Part shown: in pieces, positions 238 through 49,474 of the stretch
How positions within the stretch are numbered: the first letter of the stretch is position 1
How the letters are laid out: each line of letters begins with the position of its first letter
Assembly: GCA_019419865.1 (NCBI GenBank)
Contig: JAHZIG010000010.1
Coordinates: forward strand, 23,213 to 87,212
Direction: 5' to 3'
Length of the DNA: 64,000 nt
From: Clostridiales bacterium
Lineage (GTDB): Bacteria > Bacillota > Clostridia > Monoglobales > Monoglobaceae
The notes under the pieces: model-generated
Database searches by the model: none
What the model was told of the DNA's origin: nothing
Seen by the model: only the letters and a program-made list of their open reading frames with translations
Translations under genes and position numbers: made by a program

Positions 238-1563
238 TTATTTTTTCTTTATGTTTTCAACAAGCTCCTTGATGATCGATTCCAGCTCGGCGTCTCCGCT
301 GAGGTTGGCCTTGATCTTCTTGACCGCGGTCATTACGGTGGTGTGGTCGCGGTTGAACTCCTCGCCGATCTTAGGATACGACTCGTCGAGTATGACCCTC
401 GATATATACATCGCTATATGTCTCGGATACGCGATGTCGTTCGAGCGTTTCTTTGTGACGAGGGAGCCTTTGGGGAGTCGGAAATACTTTTCTACCTCGT
501 CGATTATGACCTGAACGGTTATATTTCTCTGAGGCAGGGTCGAGAGTATGTCCTTGAGCGCTTTTTGAGCGAGTTCCATCGATATGGTGTTGGTGCGCTC
601 GATCCCCGCGTAGGCGAGTATTCTCTTGAGTCCGCCCTCTAAGTCTCGGACGTTCGAGGTGATGTTGTTCGCCACGAACTCGACGATCTCCTCGTCGAAC
701 GTGAAATATTCCTCCTCGAGCTTGCTTCTTAGGATCGCCATTCTTGTCTCGTAGTCGGGCGGCTGGATATCCGCCAAAAGCCCCATCTGGAACCTGGTCT
801 TGAGCCTCTCCTCAAGATGCGGAGTCTCGGACGGCATCCGGTCGGACGTCAGGATTATCTGTTTGCCGGCCTCGTACAGCGCGTTGAACGTGTGGAAGAA
901 CTCCTCCTGCGCCAGCTCCTTGGTGGACAGGAACTGTATGTCGTCCATAAGCAGCAGGTCGACCGTTCTGTGTTTGTTTCTAAATTCCTGGTTTGTCTTT
1001 TCCCTTATGGCGTTTACCAGCTCGTATGTAAATTTTTCGGTAGTGGTGTAGAGCACCTTTTTGCCCGGATAATTTTTAAGGAAGTAATTGCCCACGGCCT
1101 GCATGAGGTGGGTCTTGCCGAGGCCGCTGCCGCCGTAGATGAACAGCGGGTTATATATCTGCGACGGCGATTCCGCGACCGCGAGGGCGGCGGCGTGCGC
1201 CAGGTTGTTGCTGTTTCCTACGACGAAGTTTTCAAACGTATATTTGGGGTTAAGAGCGCTCTCAAGCTTAATGGGATCGTCAACCTCTTGTTTTGACATA
1301 TCGTCTTCGAACTCTATGGCCAGCTCGTATTCCGAACCCGTAACCGCGGTTATCGCGCTCTCTATCAAAGAGCGGTATTTGGTCAGTATCATATTTTTAT
1401 TAAGACCGCTTTTTTGCGAATTGCCCGGCACCGTAAGCGTGATCGTGGTATTAGATATCGCCGCGGGCGAGATGGGCTTTATCCATGTGTCGAAAGCTAC
1501 GCTCGACATTTCGTCTTTAAGGTAACGCGTAACCTCTTCCCAAATTTGATTAACGTTCTCCAA
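238..1563 (-). CDS. dnaA: Chromosomal replication initiator DnaA
   Basis: DnaA binds DnaA boxes at oriC, forms an ATP-dependent filament and opens the duplex for helicase loading. Four family domains are visible: an N-terminal domain I (VNQIWEEVTRYL and FDTWI), a short linker, an AAA+ domain with Walker A GGSGLGKTH near residue 144 and Walker B LLLMDDIQF near 203, and a C-terminal DNA-binding domain with the signature DHTTVMTAV. The length of about 440 aa is normal. I chose the TTG start at 1563 because AGGAGAG lies about 8 bases upstream and the protein then begins MENVNQIW. A second in-frame TTG at 1587 adds 8 residues but has no ribosome binding site. The gene is divergent from rpmH, so both lie on leading strands if the origin is between them. 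Confidence 0.97.
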   Translation of the reverse strand: MENVNQIWEEVTRYLKDEMSSVAFDTWIKPISPAAISNTTITLTVPGNSQKSGLNKNMILTKYRSLIESAITAVTGSEYELAIEFEDDMSKQEVDDPIKLESALNPKYTFENFVVGNSNNLAHAAALAVAESPSQIYNPLFIYGGSGLGKTHLMQAVGNYFLKNYPGKKVLYTTTEKFTYELVNAIREKTNQEFRNKHRTVDLLLMDDIQFLSTKELAQEEFFHTFNALYEAGKQIILTSDRMPSETPHLEERLKTRFQMGLLADIQPPDYETRMAILRSKLEEEYFTFDEEIVEFVANNITSNVRDLEGGLKRILAYAGIERTNTISMELAQKALKDILSTLPQRNITVQVIIDEVEKYFRLPKGSLVTKKRSNDIAYPRHIAMYISRVILDESYPKIGEEFNRDHTTVMTAVKKIKANLSGDAELESIIKELVENIKKK

Positions 1564-1587
1564 TTCTGTATTCTCTCCTATTTTCAA

Positions 1588-1882
1588 GCGAAAGAGCGAA
1601 GCTAAAAAAGGGTGTTTTGGGGATAAACGCCCTTAAAACGCCGCAAAAAGTTGATAACTTGCCGTTTCGCACATAATCTTTCTACTATTTTAACAGAATT
1701 TATTTTACATTTCAACATAAAAACAAATAAATTTTAGCGCCAAAAATTTGTAATAAAAGACAAATAACTAAATATAGATATTAAAAATTTATCGCACAAC
1801 AATATCTTTGAATTTTGACTGAAAAAATTTTTTAATAAATTGTTAAAAAATTTTTAATCGAGCTATTCTGTAAAAATTAGGC
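1588..1882. other. Candidate oriC segment (dnaA-rpmH gap)
   Basis: This gap separates divergent dnaA and rpmH, a common origin position in Firmicutes. The stretch from about 1690 to 1870 is extremely AT-rich, with runs of A and T around 1800-1858, and would suit a DNA unwinding element. TGGGGATAA at 1618-1626 differs by one base from the DnaA-box complement TGTGGATAA, and AGTTGATAA at 1649-1657 differs by two. No perfect box is visible, so the main box cluster may lie elsewhere. The dnaA promoter must also lie here, but I could not fix it. Confidence 0.45.
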
Positions 1883-41497: not shown

Positions 41498-41551
41498 ACA
41501 CGACAGAATATATTAAAAGTTAGACAAAAATTGCGTAAAGGCGGGGAAACC

Positions 41552-42367
41552 ATGAGACCGTTTTATGAAGTGTATCCCGGATTTAAGACGGCGCCGACGG
41601 GGATATCGGTGATCCATAACCAGAGAGAGCTTTACTTTGCGCCGCATATCCACAGTAATTTGGAGATATTATACGTATATTCGGGAACGCAGCATATGTA
41701 TATCGAGGATAATCATTATAAGATACGCGAAGGCGAAGCCGTCGTTATATTCCCGGAATTCGTGCACGGCTATTACAAGGACGAAGAACGTTACGCCGAC
41801 GAGATATTGCTCAACTGCGATATGAAAATATTCGGCGGCGCTTTTCCGGACATAACCGACTGCTGTCCGGAAGATCCGGTCGTTTCGGCTGATAAGATTG
41901 ACGATAATACAAAAGAAGCGTTTAAAAGGATAAATAAGGACGACGTATTCACGGTTAAGCTGGGCTGGATGTATATAATACTCTCCTGCCTGTTTGAAAA
42001 CTTAGCCCTTGGAAACAGGGATAAGACGCCGGTGTATGATATAACATACGAGCTGATGAATTATATCAAGGATAACTTTACCGAAAACATAACGCTCGAT
42101 TCGCTGTCGGAGAGATTCCATCTGAGCAAATACTATATCTCAAGGATCTTTTCGGACAGGATCAAAATGAGTTTTAGGAGCTATATAGGCCTGATCCGTT
42201 CCGAGCGCGCCGCGAAGCTGATAAGAACGACCGACGATACGTTGACGAAGATAAGCTCCGACTCCGGCTTCGACAGTCAGAGGACGTTTAACAGGGTCTT
42301 TAAATCGGTTCACGGGCTGACGCCGAGCGAATACAGGCATAAGACGAACAGGGAAAGCAAAGCGTAA
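41552..42367 (+). CDS. AraC-family transcriptional regulator
   Basis: A 271-aa regulator. The N-terminal cupin-like sugar-binding domain carries HIHSNLEILYVYSG and VVIFPEFVHGYYK. The C-terminal AraC DNA-binding domain has two helix-turn-helix motifs (ITLDSLSERFHLSKYYISRIF and TLTKISSDSGFDSQRTFNRVF). Such regulators usually activate carbohydrate genes upon binding a sugar. It is divergent from the GH3 gene, which is the most likely target. The start at 41552 follows AAAGGCGGGG. Confidence 0.9.
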   Translation: MRPFYEVYPGFKTAPTGISVIHNQRELYFAPHIHSNLEILYVYSGTQHMYIEDNHYKIREGEAVVIFPEFVHGYYKDEERYADEILLNCDMKIFGGAFPDITDCCPEDPVVSADKIDDNTKEAFKRINKDDVFTVKLGWMYIILSCLFENLALGNRDKTPVYDITYELMNYIKDNFTENITLDSLSERFHLSKYYISRIFSDRIKMSFRSYIGLIRSERAAKLIRTTDDTLTKISSDSGFDSQRTFNRVFKSVHGLTPSEYRHKTNRESKA

Positions 42368-42383
42368 TTGCTGAAAACGGCGC

Positions 42384-42412
42384 TTGACAGATGCGCTTTT
42401 AGGCGTTATAAT
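42384..42412 (+). promoter_or_regulatory. Perfect consensus promoter of the ABC-F gene
   Basis: TTGACA and TATAAT are both perfect and separated by exactly 17 bases. It should be strong and constitutive, which fits control by attenuation in the 280-base leader. Confidence 0.85.
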
Positions 42413-42442
42413 CACAGAAACAGCTATGACGGAGGTGCGAAG

Positions 42443-42463
42443 ATGATTATTTTTTCCTGCTAA
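42443..42463 (+). CDS. Putative six-residue leader peptide
   Basis: ATG ATT ATT TTT TCC TGC TAA encodes MIIFSC. An excellent GGAGGTG site is 5 bases upstream, and the ORF lies 30 bases after the perfect promoter. A strong ribosome binding site on so short a frame suggests that ribosome stalling here senses translation-inhibiting drugs and controls the downstream ABC-F gene. Confidence 0.55.
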   Translation: MIIFSC

Positions 42464-42543
42464 ATATTTTTATGGCGCAGACGAATTTTTATATTATAAG
42501 ATCCGCTTATTTTTAGGCGGAGTTTCGTCGTCGTATAGCGCCG

Positions 42544-42670
42544 CGCGGGAGAAATAACAGCTTCGCATTGGAATATTGTCGCGTTCGATGAGCCGCGCGT
42601 TTGCGGCCGTTTTGCGCATGGATATTTTCAGACTGCGGGATCGTTATTTCCCGCGGTCTTTATTAATTTT
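42544..42670 (+). promoter_or_regulatory. Attenuator: terminator with a competing antiterminator arm
   Basis: The terminator is an 11-bp stem (42630-42640 with 42649-42659, one G-U pair) followed by TTTATTAATTTT, ending 30 bases before the ABC-F start. Upstream, CGCGG-GA-GAAATAAC (42544-42558) is complementary to GTTATTTC-CCGCG (42643-42655), so pairing of these would break the terminator. Leader peptide, antiterminator and terminator together form a classical ribosome-mediated attenuation layout. Confidence 0.6.
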
Positions 42671-42699
42671 GAAATATTTGCGTGAAGGAGGGATGCGCT

Positions 42700-44181
42700 G
42701 TGTCGATTATAAGCGTAGATAACTTAACTTTCGGCTACGACGGCGCTTCTGAGAACGTGTTTGAAAACGTAAGCTTTAAGATAGACACGGACTGGAGGCT
42801 TGGATTTATCGGACGAAACGGCAGAGGGAAGACCACGTTTTTACGGCTCTTGCTCGGCGAATACGAGTATTCCGGTAAGATAAGCGCCGACGTGGAGTTT
42901 AATTATTTTCCATATCGGGCGCCAAGCGAGGACGAAGCCGCGATCGCCGTCGCGGAGAGCGTATGCGCCCGGGAGGACTGGGAGATAATTAGGGAAGTTT
43001 CGTATCTGAACATGAATATAGAGTCGCTGTATAAGCCGTTTTCGGTCTTGTCGGGAGGGGAGCGGACAAAGCTGATGATCGCCGCGCTGTTTTTAAAGGA
43101 AAACGGGTTTTTGCTTTTGGACGAGCCGACAAATCACTTAGACGTCTATGCCAAAAACGCGCTCCGCGATTATTTAAGTAAAAAGAAAGGTTTCATTTTG
43201 GTCTCGCACGACCGGCGGCTGCTCGACGGCTGCGCGGATCATATACTTTCGATCAACAGAGACGGGATCGAGGTCGTAAAGGGAAATTTTTCTTCCTGGA
43301 AGGAGGAGTTCGATCTAAAAAACCGCGCGGAGCTTAAGAAGAACGAGGAGCTTAAAAAGGATATAAAGAGACTTAAGGCGTCCGCGGCCGAGACCGAGAA
43401 ATGGTCGCATAGAACAGAAAAGAGTAAAAACGTCGGCAGAGGCGCCGCCGGAGTCAATAAGATCGACAGAGGCTACGTAGGGCATAAGTCCGCAAAGCTG
43501 ATGAAGCGGGCTAAAAATATAGCGTCGAGACAGCTCAAGGCCGCGGAGGAGAAAGGGGCGCTGTTGAAAAACGTGGAATATTCGGGCGCGCTCAAACTAT
43601 CGCCGCTCAGCTTTCCGAAAAGTACGTTGGTCGAGCTAAATAACGTTTCGATCGGCTACGACGGCAGGGAAGTCTGCGGCGGGATCGGCTTTTCGGTGGA
43701 GCGGGGCGAACGCGTATGCCTAAGAGGCGAAAACGGCGCGGGCAAGTCGAGCGTTCTTAAACTGATAGTCGGCGAAGATATCGAGTATTCCGGCGATCTG
43801 CTCAGGAGCGAAACGCTTAAAATATCTTACGTCCGTCAAGACTCGTCCGGTCTTAGCGGAACGCTTAAAGACTACGCCGGGAGCCTCGGCGTCGACGAGA
43901 CGCTGTTTATGACGATACTTAGGAAGTTGGATTTTCCGAGAGAGGTATTCAGGTATGATATTTCAAGCTACAGCGAGGGACAAAAGAAGAAGGTCATGCT
44001 GGCCGGAAGCCTGTCGGAGCGGGCGCATTTATACGTATGGGACGAGCCGCTGAATTATATAGATATTATTTCGCGGATACAGATCGAGGAGCTTATATTA
44101 AAGTTCAAGCCGACTCTGCTTTTTGTAGAGCACGACGAAGAGTTTTGCTCCAATATAGCGGATAAGTTTGTGGAAATTTAA
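42700..44181 (+). CDS. Lsa-type ABC-F ribosomal protection protein
   Basis: A 493-aa protein with two ABC ATPase domains and no membrane segment. Domain 1 has Walker A GRNGRGKTT (residues 38-46), signature LSGGERTKL and Walker B FLLLDEPTNHLD. The interdomain linker (about 185-275) is charged and helical. Domain 2 has GENGAGKSS, SYSEGQKKKV and LYVWDEPLNYID. The opening MSIISVDNLTFGYDG, IDTDWRLGFIGRNGRGKTTF and the linker KNVGRG/IDRGYVGHKSAKLMKRAK closely follow the Lsa branch, whose members displace lincosamides, streptogramin A and pleuromutilins from the ribosome. GTG 42700 is chosen because GAAGGAGGG lies 7 bases upstream. The promoter and attenuator upstream fit an inducible resistance gene. 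Confidence 0.85.
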   Translation: MSIISVDNLTFGYDGASENVFENVSFKIDTDWRLGFIGRNGRGKTTFLRLLLGEYEYSGKISADVEFNYFPYRAPSEDEAAIAVAESVCAREDWEIIREVSYLNMNIESLYKPFSVLSGGERTKLMIAALFLKENGFLLLDEPTNHLDVYAKNALRDYLSKKKGFILVSHDRRLLDGCADHILSINRDGIEVVKGNFSSWKEEFDLKNRAELKKNEELKKDIKRLKASAAETEKWSHRTEKSKNVGRGAAGVNKIDRGYVGHKSAKLMKRAKNIASRQLKAAEEKGALLKNVEYSGALKLSPLSFPKSTLVELNNVSIGYDGREVCGGIGFSVERGERVCLRGENGAGKSSVLKLIVGEDIEYSGDLLRSETLKISYVRQDSSGLSGTLKDYAGSLGVDETLFMTILRKLDFPREVFRYDISSYSEGQKKKVMLAGSLSERAHLYVWDEPLNYIDIISRIQIEELILKFKPTLLFVEHDEEFCSNIADKFVEI

Positions 44182-44188
44182 AAGATTT

Positions 44189-44213
44189 GGGCGGCGCGAA
44201 AACTGCGCCGCCC
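44189..44213. terminator. Bidirectional terminator between the ABC-F and DUF4186 genes
   Basis: GGGCGGCGC and GCGCCGCCC form a perfect 9-bp stem. The minus-strand side continues into CCAAATCTTTT, and the plus side into a T-rich tract. Confidence 0.75.
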
Positions 44214-44217
44214 TGCG

Positions 44218-44577
44218 TTATTCTGTTTTAAGCTGGCGGTCTATCCAGCCCATGATCAGATTGACTATTTTCTCCTGCCGCTCATTTGAAAGCTCGACGC
44301 CCATCGGTACTTTGTACCATTTATTAAGGCACTTTCGACAACAGCAGGCGGTCGCGTGCTGAGCTATAAAGACCGGGTGACCGCGCATTGGCGTCTGTTT
44401 GCCGTCTTTCGGTATATGCGCCGGGGCGAGGCGGGCGCTTATGAAATCCTCGGCGTGGCCGCGGATAACGCTCAGCCCCTTTTCCCGGATGTATTCCTTA
44501 TCCTTTTCCTTTAAGCGAAAAGAGCTTCTAAAGGAGGAACGCTCCAATTTGTCTAAAGCTTGGTCGATAGTCTGCAT
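44218..44577 (-). CDS. DUF4186 family protein
   Basis: A 119-aa protein of a conserved family with unknown function. Diagnostic stretches are GHAEDFISARLAPAHIP, DGKQTPMRGHPVFIAQHATA and CCCRKCLNKWYKVP. The conserved cysteines and histidines could bind a metal. It is convergent with the ABC-F gene and follows the PL11 gene on the same strand after 29 bases, though in the polysaccharide operon it seems out of place. Confidence 0.85.
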   Translation of the reverse strand: MQTIDQALDKLERSSFRSSFRLKEKDKEYIREKGLSVIRGHAEDFISARLAPAHIPKDGKQTPMRGHPVFIAQHATACCCRKCLNKWYKVPMGVELSNERQEKIVNLIMGWIDRQLKTE

Positions 44578-44606
44578 AAATTTTCAGTCCTCTTTCAAGG
44601 CGGTCG

Positions 44607-47600
44607 TTATTCTATCCCTTGCTCCAAAACCGCGCCGAGATCGTCGTAGAGAGGTTCGTAAGTCTCGCCGTCCCAGATATACGCGTTAACGCTTCCGTTT
44701 TCGGGAGCCTGGGGCAGAGCAAATATGTACGCTTCGTTTGCGGTAAGCCGCTGTTCGGTCAGGTTTGCAAGGCAGTCTTGGGCGTCGTATACCGCAATAT
44801 AAAGCGTCGCGTCTTTAGACGACAGCGCGGATATTTGATCTTCGCCAAGCGCCGAAAAGCCTTCCGGAATAGGCGCTTCGGTAAACGTCGCGGTTATAGT
44901 TACCGCTTGATCCGGCATCGTAAATATCGATTGTATCCCGTCGTAGTCGATCTCGCCGCCGCCCGCGTCGGTTATTGTAAGAGTATCGAGCATATATCCC
45001 GGTTCCGGATCTACCGTTAGTTTGACCTCTTCGCCTTCGGCGCCGAGCGCGCTCGCGGTCGTTGCGCTTCCGTGTTCGGAGTGGAGTATATTTATACCGC
45101 TGAACGTCAGGGAAGCGGACGCGTCGCTCAGATTACTCTCGCCGACCGCGTTTTTAACGCTTGCCCTAAAGTTGTATGTTCCCTCGGTTACCCCGGTTAT
45201 CGCTACCGGAGACGTCGCTCCCGAATAGGTCGTAACGTTTCCCGTCGGATCCTCGCAGCTTACTGCGTATTCGGTTATATCGGCGCCGCCGTTGTCGGGC
45301 GCTTCAACGCTTACGTACGCCGTTCCGCTCTGGCCGTAAGCGCCGATCTCGGTCGGCTCAGCGGGCGAGTATGCGGTGGAGGAATATGTAAGGTTGGTAA
45401 TAACGGGCTTCCAGGTGACGGCGTTAACTCCGTCTACCTTGGATACTACGCGCAGCGTCTTGAAACTGTCGGCGTCGATTTCAATATCCGAGTATGCGTA
45501 GCCGTTTCCGTCGCTGTCGAGAATGGTCATATCGGCGGTTTGATTGTCGAAGTCAAAGGTAACTTTTATACTCCACGTAGTAGTATTGGTAATATGCAGC
45601 CTGGTGGATTCGCCGATAGGCGTTCCGGTGTCGCTGAGATATGTCTTGTCGGCGCCGCGGGAGTAATATTGAACTTCTTCTCTCTCCGTCGTTGAATAGA
45701 CCTTTGACAGAGCGAACAGGATGTTGTCGCCGCTTAAATCCTCTTTTCCGCCGAGTACGTTTATCGCGTTGCCTTCAGAGTCGTATTCCGCGTCCAGGAA
45801 CTGGATCTCAAAGCTGTAGTTTTTATAATAATCGCCGGCGCCGTCGTCCGATCTTTGCGCGCCCATCTTAAAGTCAAAGCTCAGCTCCGCGGTTCCGCCG
45901 TAGACGGGATTGAAGTCTCGGTACATTTCCGCGCCGTCGATGCTGTTCGTCTGATTCAGCGTCCAGCCGCTCTTCGAGAAGGAGACCATGGCGTCGGTTC
46001 CGCCGCCGCATACGAAGTCGTCGAGTTTCCCGTTCTCGGCCGAGCTGTAGAAGGTTCCGTACTCAGAATCCGCCGTTCTGAAGTCGAGCGTGTTCACCGT
46101 TTTCCCGTTATAGATATAGTCGAGCCGGTAATAGCTTTTTGCCGCGTCTTCGGATACCGTTACGACGCCGTCGTTTCCGATCGATACTTCGTTTCCGGCG
46201 TATTCCGTTCCGTCCTGATTTTTGACGGCGTAGGTCAGAGCGCCTGACAGATCTATCTTTATATTCCCGGCGTCCGTAAGATGCTTAAACGAGCGCGGCG
46301 CAAATTTCGTTTCGCCGCCTATCGCCGCCGCCGCGTGCGAAGAATACGGATAAACGGCTTCCGTGGGTCCGCCTATCTGATATATCTTGACGTTGGACAG
46401 GCCTACCGGCGCGGTTCCCGAGCCGTTGCCGCGGTTGAACGCGATCCTGTCTATCGGACGCTCGGCCGTGCCGACGTCGTTTCTCATTCCGCAGACAAGA
46501 TTATCGGTCAGAACTTCGCCTGTGTCCGCGTTCGCGACCGACATGGTCATCGTTCCGCCGCTGAAGTTTATCACATAATGAAGATTAGTTCCGGAGCTTA
46601 CGTTCGCCGATGTTTGATAATTGCTTCCGCCCGCAAACGCGCCTATCTGCGGAACCAGCGAACCGTTGAAACGGATCCCTGCGGTCGTGCCCTGATTATT
46701 GCCGCTGTATACGGTGAGCCCGATAACGTCTCCGCCGGCCGCGCCGGAGTTATCTCCGGTATATACCATGTCGAACTCTACGACCATATCGCTGTAGGAG
46801 CCGTTTAGAGTTCTTGTCACGCTGTCTTCGCCGAGTCGGTATACGGAATATTTAGAGCCGTTCGAAACGTATTCCGAAACGTTCGCGTTTTCGCTCAGCG
46901 TATAGCCGTGGTTTTCGTTTGCCTGGCTGTATCCGTTGGGCCCGAGGTTGGTCGAGTAGATCGAGACGTCGTCCTCGCCCGGCGTTATCTTCTCTTTAAA
47001 TATCAGCGTTATGAGAGTATCGTCTGCGACTGTGAACTTGGTCGAGTCGCTCGCGTCGAAGTCCATTTCGTATATCTTGCCGTCGACCGTTATGTCTTCC
47101 TTATAGCCGTCGTCTAAACTGAAACTGTAATCGCTCGTCTCGGCGAACTTATATTCCGCCACGGTCTCTTCGGGTCGGATTATAGCGCCGTCCGCCGTTT
47201 TCGTCACTGCGTTTACCGAATATGAATCGGACTCCTGCGTTGTAATGTTTACTGTCTGCGCGGTTGTATCTTCAATGCTGACGGCTACGTCGCGCTGAGT
47301 GGAGTAGCCCTGTTTTCTTATCGTATACGTATAATCGCCGGCTATAACGTCTATCTGAGCGGCGCCGTTTGAATCGGTCGCGACTGAGTATGAATCCATG
47401 GTTATTTCGGCGCCCTCTATAGGAGTTCCGTTTGAACTCGTAACGTTAAACGTCAAGCGTACCGGAGTTTTAGCGTAGTATATATTCGGAGAAGTCAACG
47501 CGGATAGATCCATGTCCTCGTTTATGTAGTAGCTCGTATACGGAGGCTGGTTATACGCGACGTTCTGCCATGCTATAGACGTGCGGTACTGACTGTCGTG

Positions 47601-48707
47601 CATGAGCGTGGTCAGCTTATAGCCTGTTGGGATCGTTGTTGTAAATATATTAAGCGCGGTGGAATCGGTGTTTCTATATACTATCTCCTCGCGCCAGTCG
47701 CCGAATAGATCGGCTGTGAGACAGGGGTTGTTCTTGCTGTCGTTGTTGGTGGCGGTATCGTTCCTTTGATAAGTCGTCCATAGCCTGTCGAAGGTGTTGG
47801 CGTTGTCGTTCCATTTAAGCATTCTGGTTCCGTCAAGCTCTTCGCGATAGAGGTCGCCGTCCCAGTAAATATTGAAGTTCGCGCTCGAGCCGTTGCTGAA
47901 CGTACCGTTTGTAGACGGTATTTCCTCGTATTCATAAGCGCCGTCGCCCTTGTCTACCGCGCCGTAAGTTTTAGCCGACGACCACATTATATATTTATAG
48001 TTCGAGCCGTAGTTGCCGATTATACCTCTGCCGACGTCGCCGGAAGGGCTGGTGTCTCTGAATATCGTAGTTCCGGACTTAGCGTCTCTTAAGCTGATGG
48101 CGGGGTTGTCCTCGTGAGGGGTAAATACTTCTAATCTGCCGTCGCCGTCGAAGTCGCCGACATGGGTCGCGTCTCCGTGTCCCCAGCCTTTGTTATATAT
48201 CGGAGTACCGTCGTGATCCAAGGCCGCCGCGCCGTAGATCAGCTCGTCGTATCCGTCGCCGTCGATATCGGCTACGGATAGGTTATGGTTGCCCTGTCCG
48301 TAGAGGGTTATATCCGAGGTCGCGGTAGATCCGTCTAAATATCTGGTCGTACTGGAGTTCCTTTCGCCCGAGTATAGCCACTGTTCGGTCAGGTTGGTCC
48401 CGTCCCAGGTATACGCCGCGATATACGCGTACGTATAGTAGCCTCTGCACATCAAAACGCTTGGACGAACGCCGTCCAAGTATGCGACCGCGGCTAAGTA
48501 GCGTTCGCTGCGGTTGTAAGAGCCGTCGCCCCAGTTCGAGGTTACGTCGCGCGGAGGGTCGTAATCGACGGTTTGCAGAGCTTCGCCGGTTTCGCCGCTG
48601 AATACTGTTAAATATTCTCCGCCGCTTGTTACATGTCCTCTGCTGTTACGGTAGTCTCTGCTGTTGTCCGCGCTGCGTATAGCGCCGGTAGCGCCTACTT
48701 CGGTCAC
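44607..48707 (-). CDS. Rhamnogalacturonan lyase (PL11), C-terminal part after a frameshift
   Basis: These 1366 codons continue the PL11 protein after a one-base frameshift near 48737-48741. The propeller continues with SVADIDGDGYDELIYGA and VGDFDGDGRLEVF calcium motifs and WREEIVYRN, then ends near residue 400. Behind it lie a carboxypeptidase-regulatory-like domain (NGTPIEGAEITMDSYS), two beta-sandwich domains, a fibronectin-III domain (about 1145-1230), an InlB-type repeat and the shared C-terminal module (LYIAVYDAQ to AYIWDG). The GTG at 48707 lies inside conserved sequence and is not a real start. If the frameshift is real, this part is not made and the lyase is inactive. Confidence 0.85.
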   Translation of the reverse strand: MTEVGATGAIRSADNSRDYRNSRGHVTSGGEYLTVFSGETGEALQTVDYDPPRDVTSNWGDGSYNRSERYLAAVAYLDGVRPSVLMCRGYYTYAYIAAYTWDGTNLTEQWLYSGERNSSTTRYLDGSTATSDITLYGQGNHNLSVADIDGDGYDELIYGAAALDHDGTPIYNKGWGHGDATHVGDFDGDGRLEVFTPHEDNPAISLRDAKSGTTIFRDTSPSGDVGRGIIGNYGSNYKYIMWSSAKTYGAVDKGDGAYEYEEIPSTNGTFSNGSSANFNIYWDGDLYREELDGTRMLKWNDNANTFDRLWTTYQRNDTATNNDSKNNPCLTADLFGDWREEIVYRNTDSTALNIFTTTIPTGYKLTTLMHDSQYRTSIAWQNVAYNQPPYTSYYINEDMDLSALTSPNIYYAKTPVRLTFNVTSSNGTPIEGAEITMDSYSVATDSNGAAQIDVIAGDYTYTIRKQGYSTQRDVAVSIEDTTAQTVNITTQESDSYSVNAVTKTADGAIIRPEETVAEYKFAETSDYSFSLDDGYKEDITVDGKIYEMDFDASDSTKFTVADDTLITLIFKEKITPGEDDVSIYSTNLGPNGYSQANENHGYTLSENANVSEYVSNGSKYSVYRLGEDSVTRTLNGSYSDMVVEFDMVYTGDNSGAAGGDVIGLTVYSGNNQGTTAGIRFNGSLVPQIGAFAGGSNYQTSANVSSGTNLHYVINFSGGTMTMSVANADTGEVLTDNLVCGMRNDVGTAERPIDRIAFNRGNGSGTAPVGLSNVKIYQIGGPTEAVYPYSSHAAAAIGGETKFAPRSFKHLTDAGNIKIDLSGALTYAVKNQDGTEYAGNEVSIGNDGVVTVSEDAAKSYYRLDYIYNGKTVNTLDFRTADSEYGTFYSSAENGKLDDFVCGGGTDAMVSFSKSGWTLNQTNSIDGAEMYRDFNPVYGGTAELSFDFKMGAQRSDDGAGDYYKNYSFEIQFLDAEYDSEGNAINVLGGKEDLSGDNILFALSKVYSTTEREEVQYYSRGADKTYLSDTGTPIGESTRLHITNTTTWSIKVTFDFDNQTADMTILDSDGNGYAYSDIEIDADSFKTLRVVSKVDGVNAVTWKPVITNLTYSSTAYSPAEPTEIGAYGQSGTAYVSVEAPDNGGADITEYAVSCEDPTGNVTTYSGATSPVAITGVTEGTYNFRASVKNAVGESNLSDASASLTFSGINILHSEHGSATTASALGAEGEEVKLTVDPEPGYMLDTLTITDAGGGEIDYDGIQSIFTMPDQAVTITATFTEAPIPEGFSALGEDQISALSSKDATLYIAVYDAQDCLANLTEQRLTANEAYIFALPQAPENGSVNAYIWDGETYEPLYDDLGAVLEQGIE

Positions 48708-49474
48708 GTACGCTCCGGTCGCGTCCTTGGAGCCGGCCCGGTCTTGCAGATTATCTCCGCTTTGCCGTCGCCGTCGAAGTCGTAGACCATAAATTGAGTG
48801 TAGTGAGCGCCCGCGCGGATATTAACGCCAAGGTCTATATTCTGGCTCCAGACGCGCGTCCCATCCAGTTTATAGCAGTCCAAGAGAACGTTTCCGGTAT
48901 AGCCGGACTGCGAGTTGTCTTTCGAGTTGGTGGGATCCCATTTTAAAATTATCTCATATTCGCCGTCTCCGTCCACGTCGCCGACGCTGCAGTCGTTTGC
49001 CGTGTATTCAAAGCTTCCGCTCGCCGTACTTCCGCCGTCGGGTTTAACAAGGTCTATGTGAACGTAGGGGTAGTCGGCAAAGTCGGTCAGTATTTCTACG
49101 CTCTTTGAGAGCAGGCCGACCTCGCCGTCGATCACCGGAGCTATCTGATAGTTGTTCGACGGGCTTCCGCCTGTGTGCGTGTAGTTGGTAGCGTCTAGGT
49201 TTTCGGCTATAAGCGAGCCGTTACAATAAACGTTGAATTTTGTGTCCATCGGTTCGGTTCCGAGCAGTCTCCAGCTCATGAACACGCCGCCGCTTACCGC
49301 CGCGCCGATCGCGCCTCTGGAGAGGTACTCCATCTGTCTCGGCTCGTCCGCCGAGAGCGCCGCTTGCTCCGAAACAGTTTCGTCGCCTGCGGCAAATACG
49401 CCGCCAAAGTTTAATACTGATATGAGCATCGAAAGGATTATCAGTGCGGAGATTGATTTGAATAATGGTTTCAT
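48704..49474 (-). CDS. Rhamnogalacturonan lyase (PL11), N-terminal part
   Basis: 256 codons with a signal peptide (MKPLFKSISALIILSMLISVLNFGG), then the PL11 start: RQMEYLSRGAIGA, GVFMSWRLLGTEP and the calcium motifs SVGDVDGDGEYEIILKW and VYDFDGDGKAEIICKT. PL11 enzymes cleave the rhamnogalacturonan-I backbone by beta-elimination outside the cell. After KT the frame should pass to AGSKDATGAYVTEVG, but a missing base in a short G run sends it into a TGA. The start follows GGAGGCGAA and lies 44 bases after the PL1 stop, so both lyases form one transcript. The full gene would be about 1620 codons. Confidence 0.88.
   Translation of the reverse strand: MKPLFKSISALIILSMLISVLNFGGVFAAGDETVSEQAALSADEPRQMEYLSRGAIGAAVSGGVFMSWRLLGTEPMDTKFNVYCNGSLIAENLDATNYTHTGGSPSNNYQIAPVIDGEVGLLSKSVEILTDFADYPYVHIDLVKPDGGSTASGSFEYTANDCSVGDVDGDGEYEIILKWDPTNSKDNSQSGYTGNVLLDCYKLDGTRVWSQNIDLGVNIRAGAHYTQFMVYDFDGDGKAEIICKTGPAPRTRPERT

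Follow-up and report, generated by a model that had tools for sequence, protein, structure and literature searches.

A putative transcription attenuator upstream of an Lsa-like ABC-F gene, with a ribosome held on a start codon as its candidate sensor

The leader preceding an Lsa-like ABC-F gene in the window, as the 64,000-nucleotide stretch of DNA analysed here, likely from a gut-dwelling member of the Clostridia, is termed, is probably a transcription attenuator in which a ribosome kept at the start codon of the upstream frame (uORF) MIIFSC serves as sensor. This reading is based on sequence comparison and on predicted RNA folds. When drug is absent, the ribosome would leave the tiny frame and the frame region (strand U) would pair with a downstream antiterminator strand, termed A; with strand A engaged, an intrinsic terminator is predicted to form, halting RNA polymerase. 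A drug blocking the first step after initiation, which as judged from the Lsa-type gene would be a lincosamide, a pleuromutilin or a streptogramin A, would leave the ribosome positioned over the AUG and the 15-18 bases that follow. Strand A, once freed, would pair with the 3' arm of the terminator, and the gene would be transcribed. All three drug classes halt ribosomes at initiation or immediately afterwards, according to the available text of two reports (PMC10201436, PMC12421871), and precedents for the attenuation mechanism are described in the accessible portions of the studies on vmlR (PMC9226507) and cplR (PMC10201436).

Organization of the leader and its gene

The elements of the leader are listed in Table 1. 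A preliminary description had noted the perfect promoter and the six-codon frame with its ribosome site, and both were found as claimed. The segment then proposed to be complementary to the terminator 3' arm is so (42545-42558 with 42643-42654), except for a two-base bulge. The terminator hairpin itself is present, but it ends 40 bases 5' of the GTG start, and its earlier placement just before the gene did not hold. A short frame with a putative ribosome site thus lies upstream of an ABC-F gene, as in attenuators of this class.

Table 1. Elements of the leader and the downstream gene, in window coordinates
Feature	Position	Strand	Basis or remark
Sigma-70-type promoter, TTGACA-17-TATAAT	42384..42412	+	12/12 consensus letters
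GGAGG ribosome binding site for upstream frame	42431..42435	+	Sequence; 7 bases 5' of ATG
Upstream frame MIIFSC, six codons, ATGATTATTTTTTCCTGCTAA	42443..42463	+	Relatives have the same kind of frame in the same place
Anti-antiterminator helix, 5' arm (strand U)	42435..42460	+	Folding; covariation in relatives
Strand U segment like terminator 3' arm	42450-42460	+	Sequence likeness
Inner hairpin P2, GGCGC 42474-42478 : GCGCC 42538-42542	42474..42542	+	Fold; conserved helix 3 in relatives
Antiterminator strand (A)	42545..42568	+	Sequence, folding, cognate-pairing test
Strand A part GCGGGAGAAATAAC, able to pair with uORF or terminator 3' arm	42545-42558	+	
Strand A part complementary to 42435-42442	42561-42568	+	
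Intrinsic terminator hairpin	42630..42659	+	11 pairs, 7 of them G-C
Terminator piece complementary to antiterminator strand	42643-42654	+	Sequence, folding
Weak U tract	42660..42671	+	Sequence
AAGGAGG ribosome binding site of ABC-F gene	42685..42691	+	Sequence
Lsa-like ABC-F gene, GTG start	42700..44181	+	NCBIfam profiles; PDB match

The gene product passes the NCBIfam profile ribo_prot_ABC_F (NF000355; 450.5 bits, cut-off 380) but falls below the cut-off of ABCF_Lsa_all (NF000167; 677.6 bits, cut-off 750), and the gene is therefore named Lsa-like only. The best PDB match is Lsa(A) (7nhk), and the closest relative, at 94% identity, comes from Candidatus Roslinia caecavium, a chicken metagenome assembly of the class Clostridia. 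Within 41500-45000, neither promoter-like sites (3 versus 3.5 in shuffles) nor terminator-like sites (6 versus 4.2) are in clear excess, so that the significance of the leader elements derives from comparison with relatives. An Rfam 15 scan of the window gave no match above the gathering score.

An AraC-family regulator gene (41531-42367) ends 16 bases 5' of the leader promoter, and a convergent gene for a DUF4186 protein (44218-44577, minus strand) lies downstream of the ABC-F gene. Further on, two long minus-strand open frames spanning 44607-49474 (44607-48707 and 48704-49474, overlapping by four bases) match profile positions 1-109 and 121-486, respectively, of the same rhamnogalacturonan lyase domain; since they cover successive parts of one domain, a single lyase gene appears to be split by a frame change.

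A family of related leaders

Among 68 regions upstream of related genes (57 of 60 gene-relative loci, the window and ten other loci), 20 have a ribosome site followed by an M-x(2-4)-S-C frame; 200 shuffled sets gave 0.22 on average and at most 2. Eighteen of the 20 are clearly separate, since L001 and L006 have one sequence, which the window copies closely. The other 48 regions contain no S-C frame, and many of these also lack a match to the second model described here. Two covariance models were built with the window left out, the first from eight leaders including that of lsa(E) and the second from 34 leaders; they recovered the window leader with E values of 7.2e-4 (351 kb searched) and 1.8e-5 (310 kb searched), respectively. 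The first model matched 32 of 391 genomes of the window's class (E up to 0.01), while the second matched 29 of 398 genomes of the phylum (E up to 0.05) and, in one family, group f109, 140 of 295 genomes (E up to 0.01). Such leaders can be found in genomes by means of a covariance model.

All 31 loci of a first fetched batch, four of which are repeat loci, precede an ABC-F gene, Lsa-like in 30. At L097, the leader MIIFSCK (1501-1618, minus strand) precedes an ABC-F gene that resembles the Msr, CplR and Vga models more than the Lsa one, and the leader thus seems exchangeable between ABC-F subfamilies, as judged from sequence. In a second batch, 25 of 28 loci precede an ABC-F gene by protein match, L102 and L109 show the gene start only, and L128 (E 0.04) was rejected as a false model match. 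For group f109 the corresponding count is 28 of 30; in L154 a gene start is visible but the open stretch selected is at another place. L140 had looked like a leader that lacks a gene, a reading set aside because its contig stops 136 bases past the leader.

Other leader types were also observed. L046, L048 and L051 carry a different type upstream of the ABC-F gene, with the frame MRR* in L046 and L051; here the strand that faces the ribosome site has CCUCUCUUUUU at its end and is possibly a terminator arm in its own right. L040, L044 and L055, from Enterococcus cecorum and kin, have another leader frame (MLLESEIVHVLRYTPL in L055) and an AAGUCGG...CCGACUU hairpin 5' of the Lsa-like gene.

Alternative pairings of the antiterminator strand

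The window leader folds better than all of 200 shuffles (z -3.58). The uORF codons UUUUCUUGC resemble the 3' arm of the terminator, and either can pair with one and the same strand. In the predicted fold, the uORF together with the bases past its ribosome site pairs with strand A, which thus has two partners, the uORF region and the terminator 3' arm. Pairing of the MIIFSC codons with the antiterminator strand is a third pairing absent from the preliminary description, and it would make a stalled ribosome matter. The resulting order of anti-antiterminator, antiterminator and terminator is that published for vmlR. The layout of ribosome-mediated attenuation claimed at the outset is accordingly supported by frame, antiterminator and terminator, with the uORF:antiterminator pairing in addition.

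The footprint of a ribosome at the start codon was simulated by blocking 31 bases, from 14 before the A of the AUG to 16 after it, and a control block of equal size was placed between the uORF and the antiterminator strand; the folds are equilibrium predictions rather than transcription kinetics. In the unblocked window leader, the terminator arm is predicted to be in the hairpin at 0.75 and in the antiterminator pairing at 0.00; blocking the AUG changes these values to 0.23 and 0.68, respectively, while the control block leaves the predicted fold unchanged. In a first set, the 41 of 48 leaders for which a terminator arm was available, the AUG block gave a predicted antiterminator gain above 0.3 in 22 and a terminator loss above 0.3 in 19, the equilibrium fold of the other 19 showing no antiterminator gain above 0.3. 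In a second set both changes exceeded 0.3 in 26 of 29 leaders, and the antiterminator gain did not exceed 0.3 in three. Control blocks switched none of the 41 and none of the 29. Sequence and folding together thus predict an intrinsic terminator with a competing antiterminator pairing between frame and gene, and a frame region that pairs with the antiterminator strand such that ribosome occupancy would switch the fold.

Conservation of both pairings

Pairing of the uORF with strand A reached 10.73 of 14 in cognate combinations versus 10.22 in mismatched ones (n = 48; 0 of 5000 permutations), and 10.80 versus 9.94 in 20 dissimilar leaders (2 of 5000 permutations). For the terminator and strand A, the values were 11.03 versus 10.29 (n = 38; 0 of 5000), the terminator arm not being located in 10 of the 48 leaders, and 10.69 versus 9.88 in 13 dissimilar leaders (24 of 5000). 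In direct likeness, the uORF resembles the terminator arm of the same leader hardly more than a mismatched one (0.639 versus 0.622; 252 of 5000), because both lie near one consensus.

In an alignment of 34 leaders fitted to the structure, 14 of 26 pairs changed on both sides, versus 9.6 in shuffles, and 69 cells changed on both sides, versus 25.7; pairing was retained in 86.1% of cells, versus 79.8% when shuffled and 39-55% when slid. An unfitted alignment of eight leaders gave 7 of 21 predicted pairs that stay paired through changes on both sides. These sequence comparisons show each of the two pairings of strand A to be conserved and specific to the cognate leader. An explanation in which the hairpins act in a constant manner, as an unregulated partial terminator or as an element of RNA stability with an incidental frame, would suit the lack of clear enrichment of terminator-like and promoter-like sites over shuffles in the region. 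Given one strand with two mutually exclusive conserved pairings, together with conservation of the start codon, the ribosome site and the spacing, this explanation is very unlikely.

Start codon and reading frame among the leaders

Frames were surveyed in 77 leaders, a set that leaves out L013, L063 and the MRR* types (L046, L051), the repeat places L001, L071, L072, L076 and L099, and the false match L128; start codons were sought at 15-20 and 25 bases from the point where the pairing stretch ends. The start codon stood 18 bases ahead of that point in 65 leaders, and 19, 17 and 16 bases ahead of it in nine, one and two, respectively. M...SC is encoded in 56 of the 77. The S-C frames in 20 of 68 upstream regions versus 0.22 by chance had led at first to the reading that conservation of the peptide drives the pattern. 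Leaders with early stops overturned it: 14 of the 77 frames (MK, MI, MR, MRN, MRK, MKL and M alone) stop before the stretch is read through, and therefore before the Cys codon, yet keep the RNA. On a tree of 75 proteins the early-stop state changed at least 10 times, at least 5 of these by starred branches (quick method), and the sister genes L075 and L082 differ in it.

The same leaders bear on erm-type stalling, in which drug and a nascent xxFSC peptide would halt the ribosome at the Ser-Cys codons and the peptide would be conserved for that purpose. The frequency of S-C frames would fit such stalling; the early stops, the apparent start-stop frames in 72 of 90 leaders of one family, the leader L037 (MRNISR; a weak match, E 0.17), in which Cys is replaced with a matching change in the terminator, and L127, which carries the stretch in another frame, render it unlikely. 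Classical amino-acid attenuation, with scarce charged Cys (or Ser) tRNA stalling the ribosome at UGC, would account for the Cys codon that ends most frames in the survey, and is barely credible considering that frames lacking a Cys codon keep the pairing strands and that nearly all fetched matches precede ABC-F genes and none an amino-acid gene.

What is conserved, as judged from these sequences, is the RNA and a start codon 15-19 bases before the stretch end, and not the peptide, whose FSC is most simply a by-product of codons that resemble the terminator arm. A fixed distance combined with a free frame fits a start-codon sensor, since a ribosome arrested there would lie over the stretch regardless of how the frame reads. 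The preliminary description had named lack of conservation of leader frame and pairing as refuting; among the relatives the pairing (by covariation), the start codon and the spacing are conserved, whereas the reading frame is not. Its remark that the peptide is unlike described ones was borne out, MIIFSC matching none of MIN, MK[L/Q], MR[I/M] and MAGN; what sets the peptide apart is chiefly the likeness of its last codons to the terminator arm, and the sensor is probably not the peptide itself. The leaders form a natural series of frames of 1 to 8 codons on one RNA scaffold, by which peptide sensing and start-codon sensing become directly testable. A study of uORF sequence against inducing drugs is called for in the available text of PMC10201436.

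Start-stop leaders in one bacterial family

From 90 of the 140 matching f109 genomes one leader each was surveyed. In 72 of the 90 (66 distinct sequences) the start codon is followed immediately by a stop; the start is ATG, or GTG in four, and the stops are UAA (42), UAG (21) and UGA (9). Group f109 is likely Paenibacillus kin, since the protein tree places L068, a leader from Paenibacillus urinalis, as sister to one f109 member. An Lsa-type gene start was seen in 72 of the 90 short f109 stretches by a strict simple pattern, which misses L140, L147, L155 and L159, three of which match by protein.

Blocking the start codon flips the predicted fold in 23 of 25 start-stop leaders, which belong to the set of 29 folded above. 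The ribosome site lies 12 bases from the start in 55 of the 72, a spacing longer than usual. In many start-stop leaders an upstream TTG, giving MKRIM, was considered as the true start and may be so, although it abuts the ribosome site and several leaders have none. We infer that the start codon of the start-stop frames is used for initiation. At such a frame, it is release of the initiator residue, rather than formation of the first peptide bond, that the drug would have to block.

The data gave no support for selection of a stop codon at this position: among 75 frames that have TRR next to the start, TGG (Trp) occurs 3 times versus 3.84 expected if variation at the two purines is independent (Fisher p 0.74). 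In 25 start-stop leaders, the bases that follow the start codon face GUUAC (23) or GCUAC (2) in the antiterminator strand. Because of this facing, and because UGG is not depleted, the stop need not be selected and may be a by-product of pairing. The sequence after the start codon seems immaterial in these leaders.

The leader of lsa(E)

The mobile plasmid gene lsa(E) carries a leader of the present family (MYNFSC, L070), and L101 has a gene and leader nearly identical to those of lsa(E). The 389-base stretch upstream of lsa(E), which runs from the uORF to the gene, matches 111 plasmid records, 106 of them from Enterococcus, and at least 80% of the stretch is covered in 102 of the 111; the gene itself is covered to at least 80% in 108 of 114 plasmid records with a match. 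Membership of the leader family predicts that the widespread mobile lsa(E) is inducible.

A second short frame lies between terminator and gene in L070, L101, L075, L082, L083 and L069, with examples M.NKDT.LTHDNLHI in L075, L082 and L083 and MIDNDTMSF in lsa(E), and in the same six loci hairpins lie near the ribosome site of the gene. Second frame and hairpins are possibly a tandem translational attenuator. L069 has the second frame, and by the model no leader of the present family.

On balance we lean towards a broader reading, in which a large undescribed RNA family would sense drug-arrested initiation alone, such that any frame suffices, the sensor of one bacterial family has shrunk to a start-stop, and the lsa(E) leader is a member. 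Start-stop leaders would then read an antibiotic with no peptide bond being made. Counting against a free frame, the uORF sequence matters for induction of vmlR, according to published discussion in the accessible part of PMC10201436.

Comparison with known systems

The general kind of leader is already known from vmlR, cplR, tiaA and are5sc, and from the predicted uORFs MK[L/Q] and MAGN. New, as far as literature and Rfam searches reach, are the RNA family, the use of uORF codons as a pairing strand resembling the terminator arm, frame freedom and start-stop leaders. In one open library, no article was found with six leader peptides of the present family in a leader context, and the matches listed contained neither a description of an lsa(E) leader nor a start-stop uORF in bacterial attenuation.

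Bacillus subtilis vmlR, with the uORF MIN, is similar in that the uORF lies in an anti-antiterminator hairpin followed by an antiterminator, an intrinsic terminator and a PLSA-type ABC-F gene, as described in the available text of PMC9226507. It differs in that its tripeptide uORF occupies a hairpin bulge, whereas in the window the uORF codons are themselves the pairing strand resembling the terminator arm; the same text reports a hairpin that partly masks the ribosome site of the vmlR gene. Clostridioides difficile cplR, with the uORF MR[I/M], has a short uORF in a 5' hairpin and a premature terminator and is induced by lincomycin and retapamulin, in the accessible portion of PMC10201436. In contrast with the window, its peptide and its ABC-F subfamily are different, and its terminator is predicted to mask the ribosome site of the gene.

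The same portion of PMC10201436 gives a predicted uORF, MAGN, before the Lsa-type gene of LsaA. Its peptide consensus, computed at an 80% identity cut-off to LsaA, is another one; the comparison is by consensus only. In Streptomyces coelicolor, tiaA (MVGDDDISG) and are5sc (MLV) are controlled by attenuation in which, as toeprinting showed, the ribosome stalls on the start codon of the uORF, according to the available text of PMC12421871. Compared by description only, these differ from the present leaders in preceding actinobacterial ARE5 genes, while sharing the start codon as the site of arrest proposed here.
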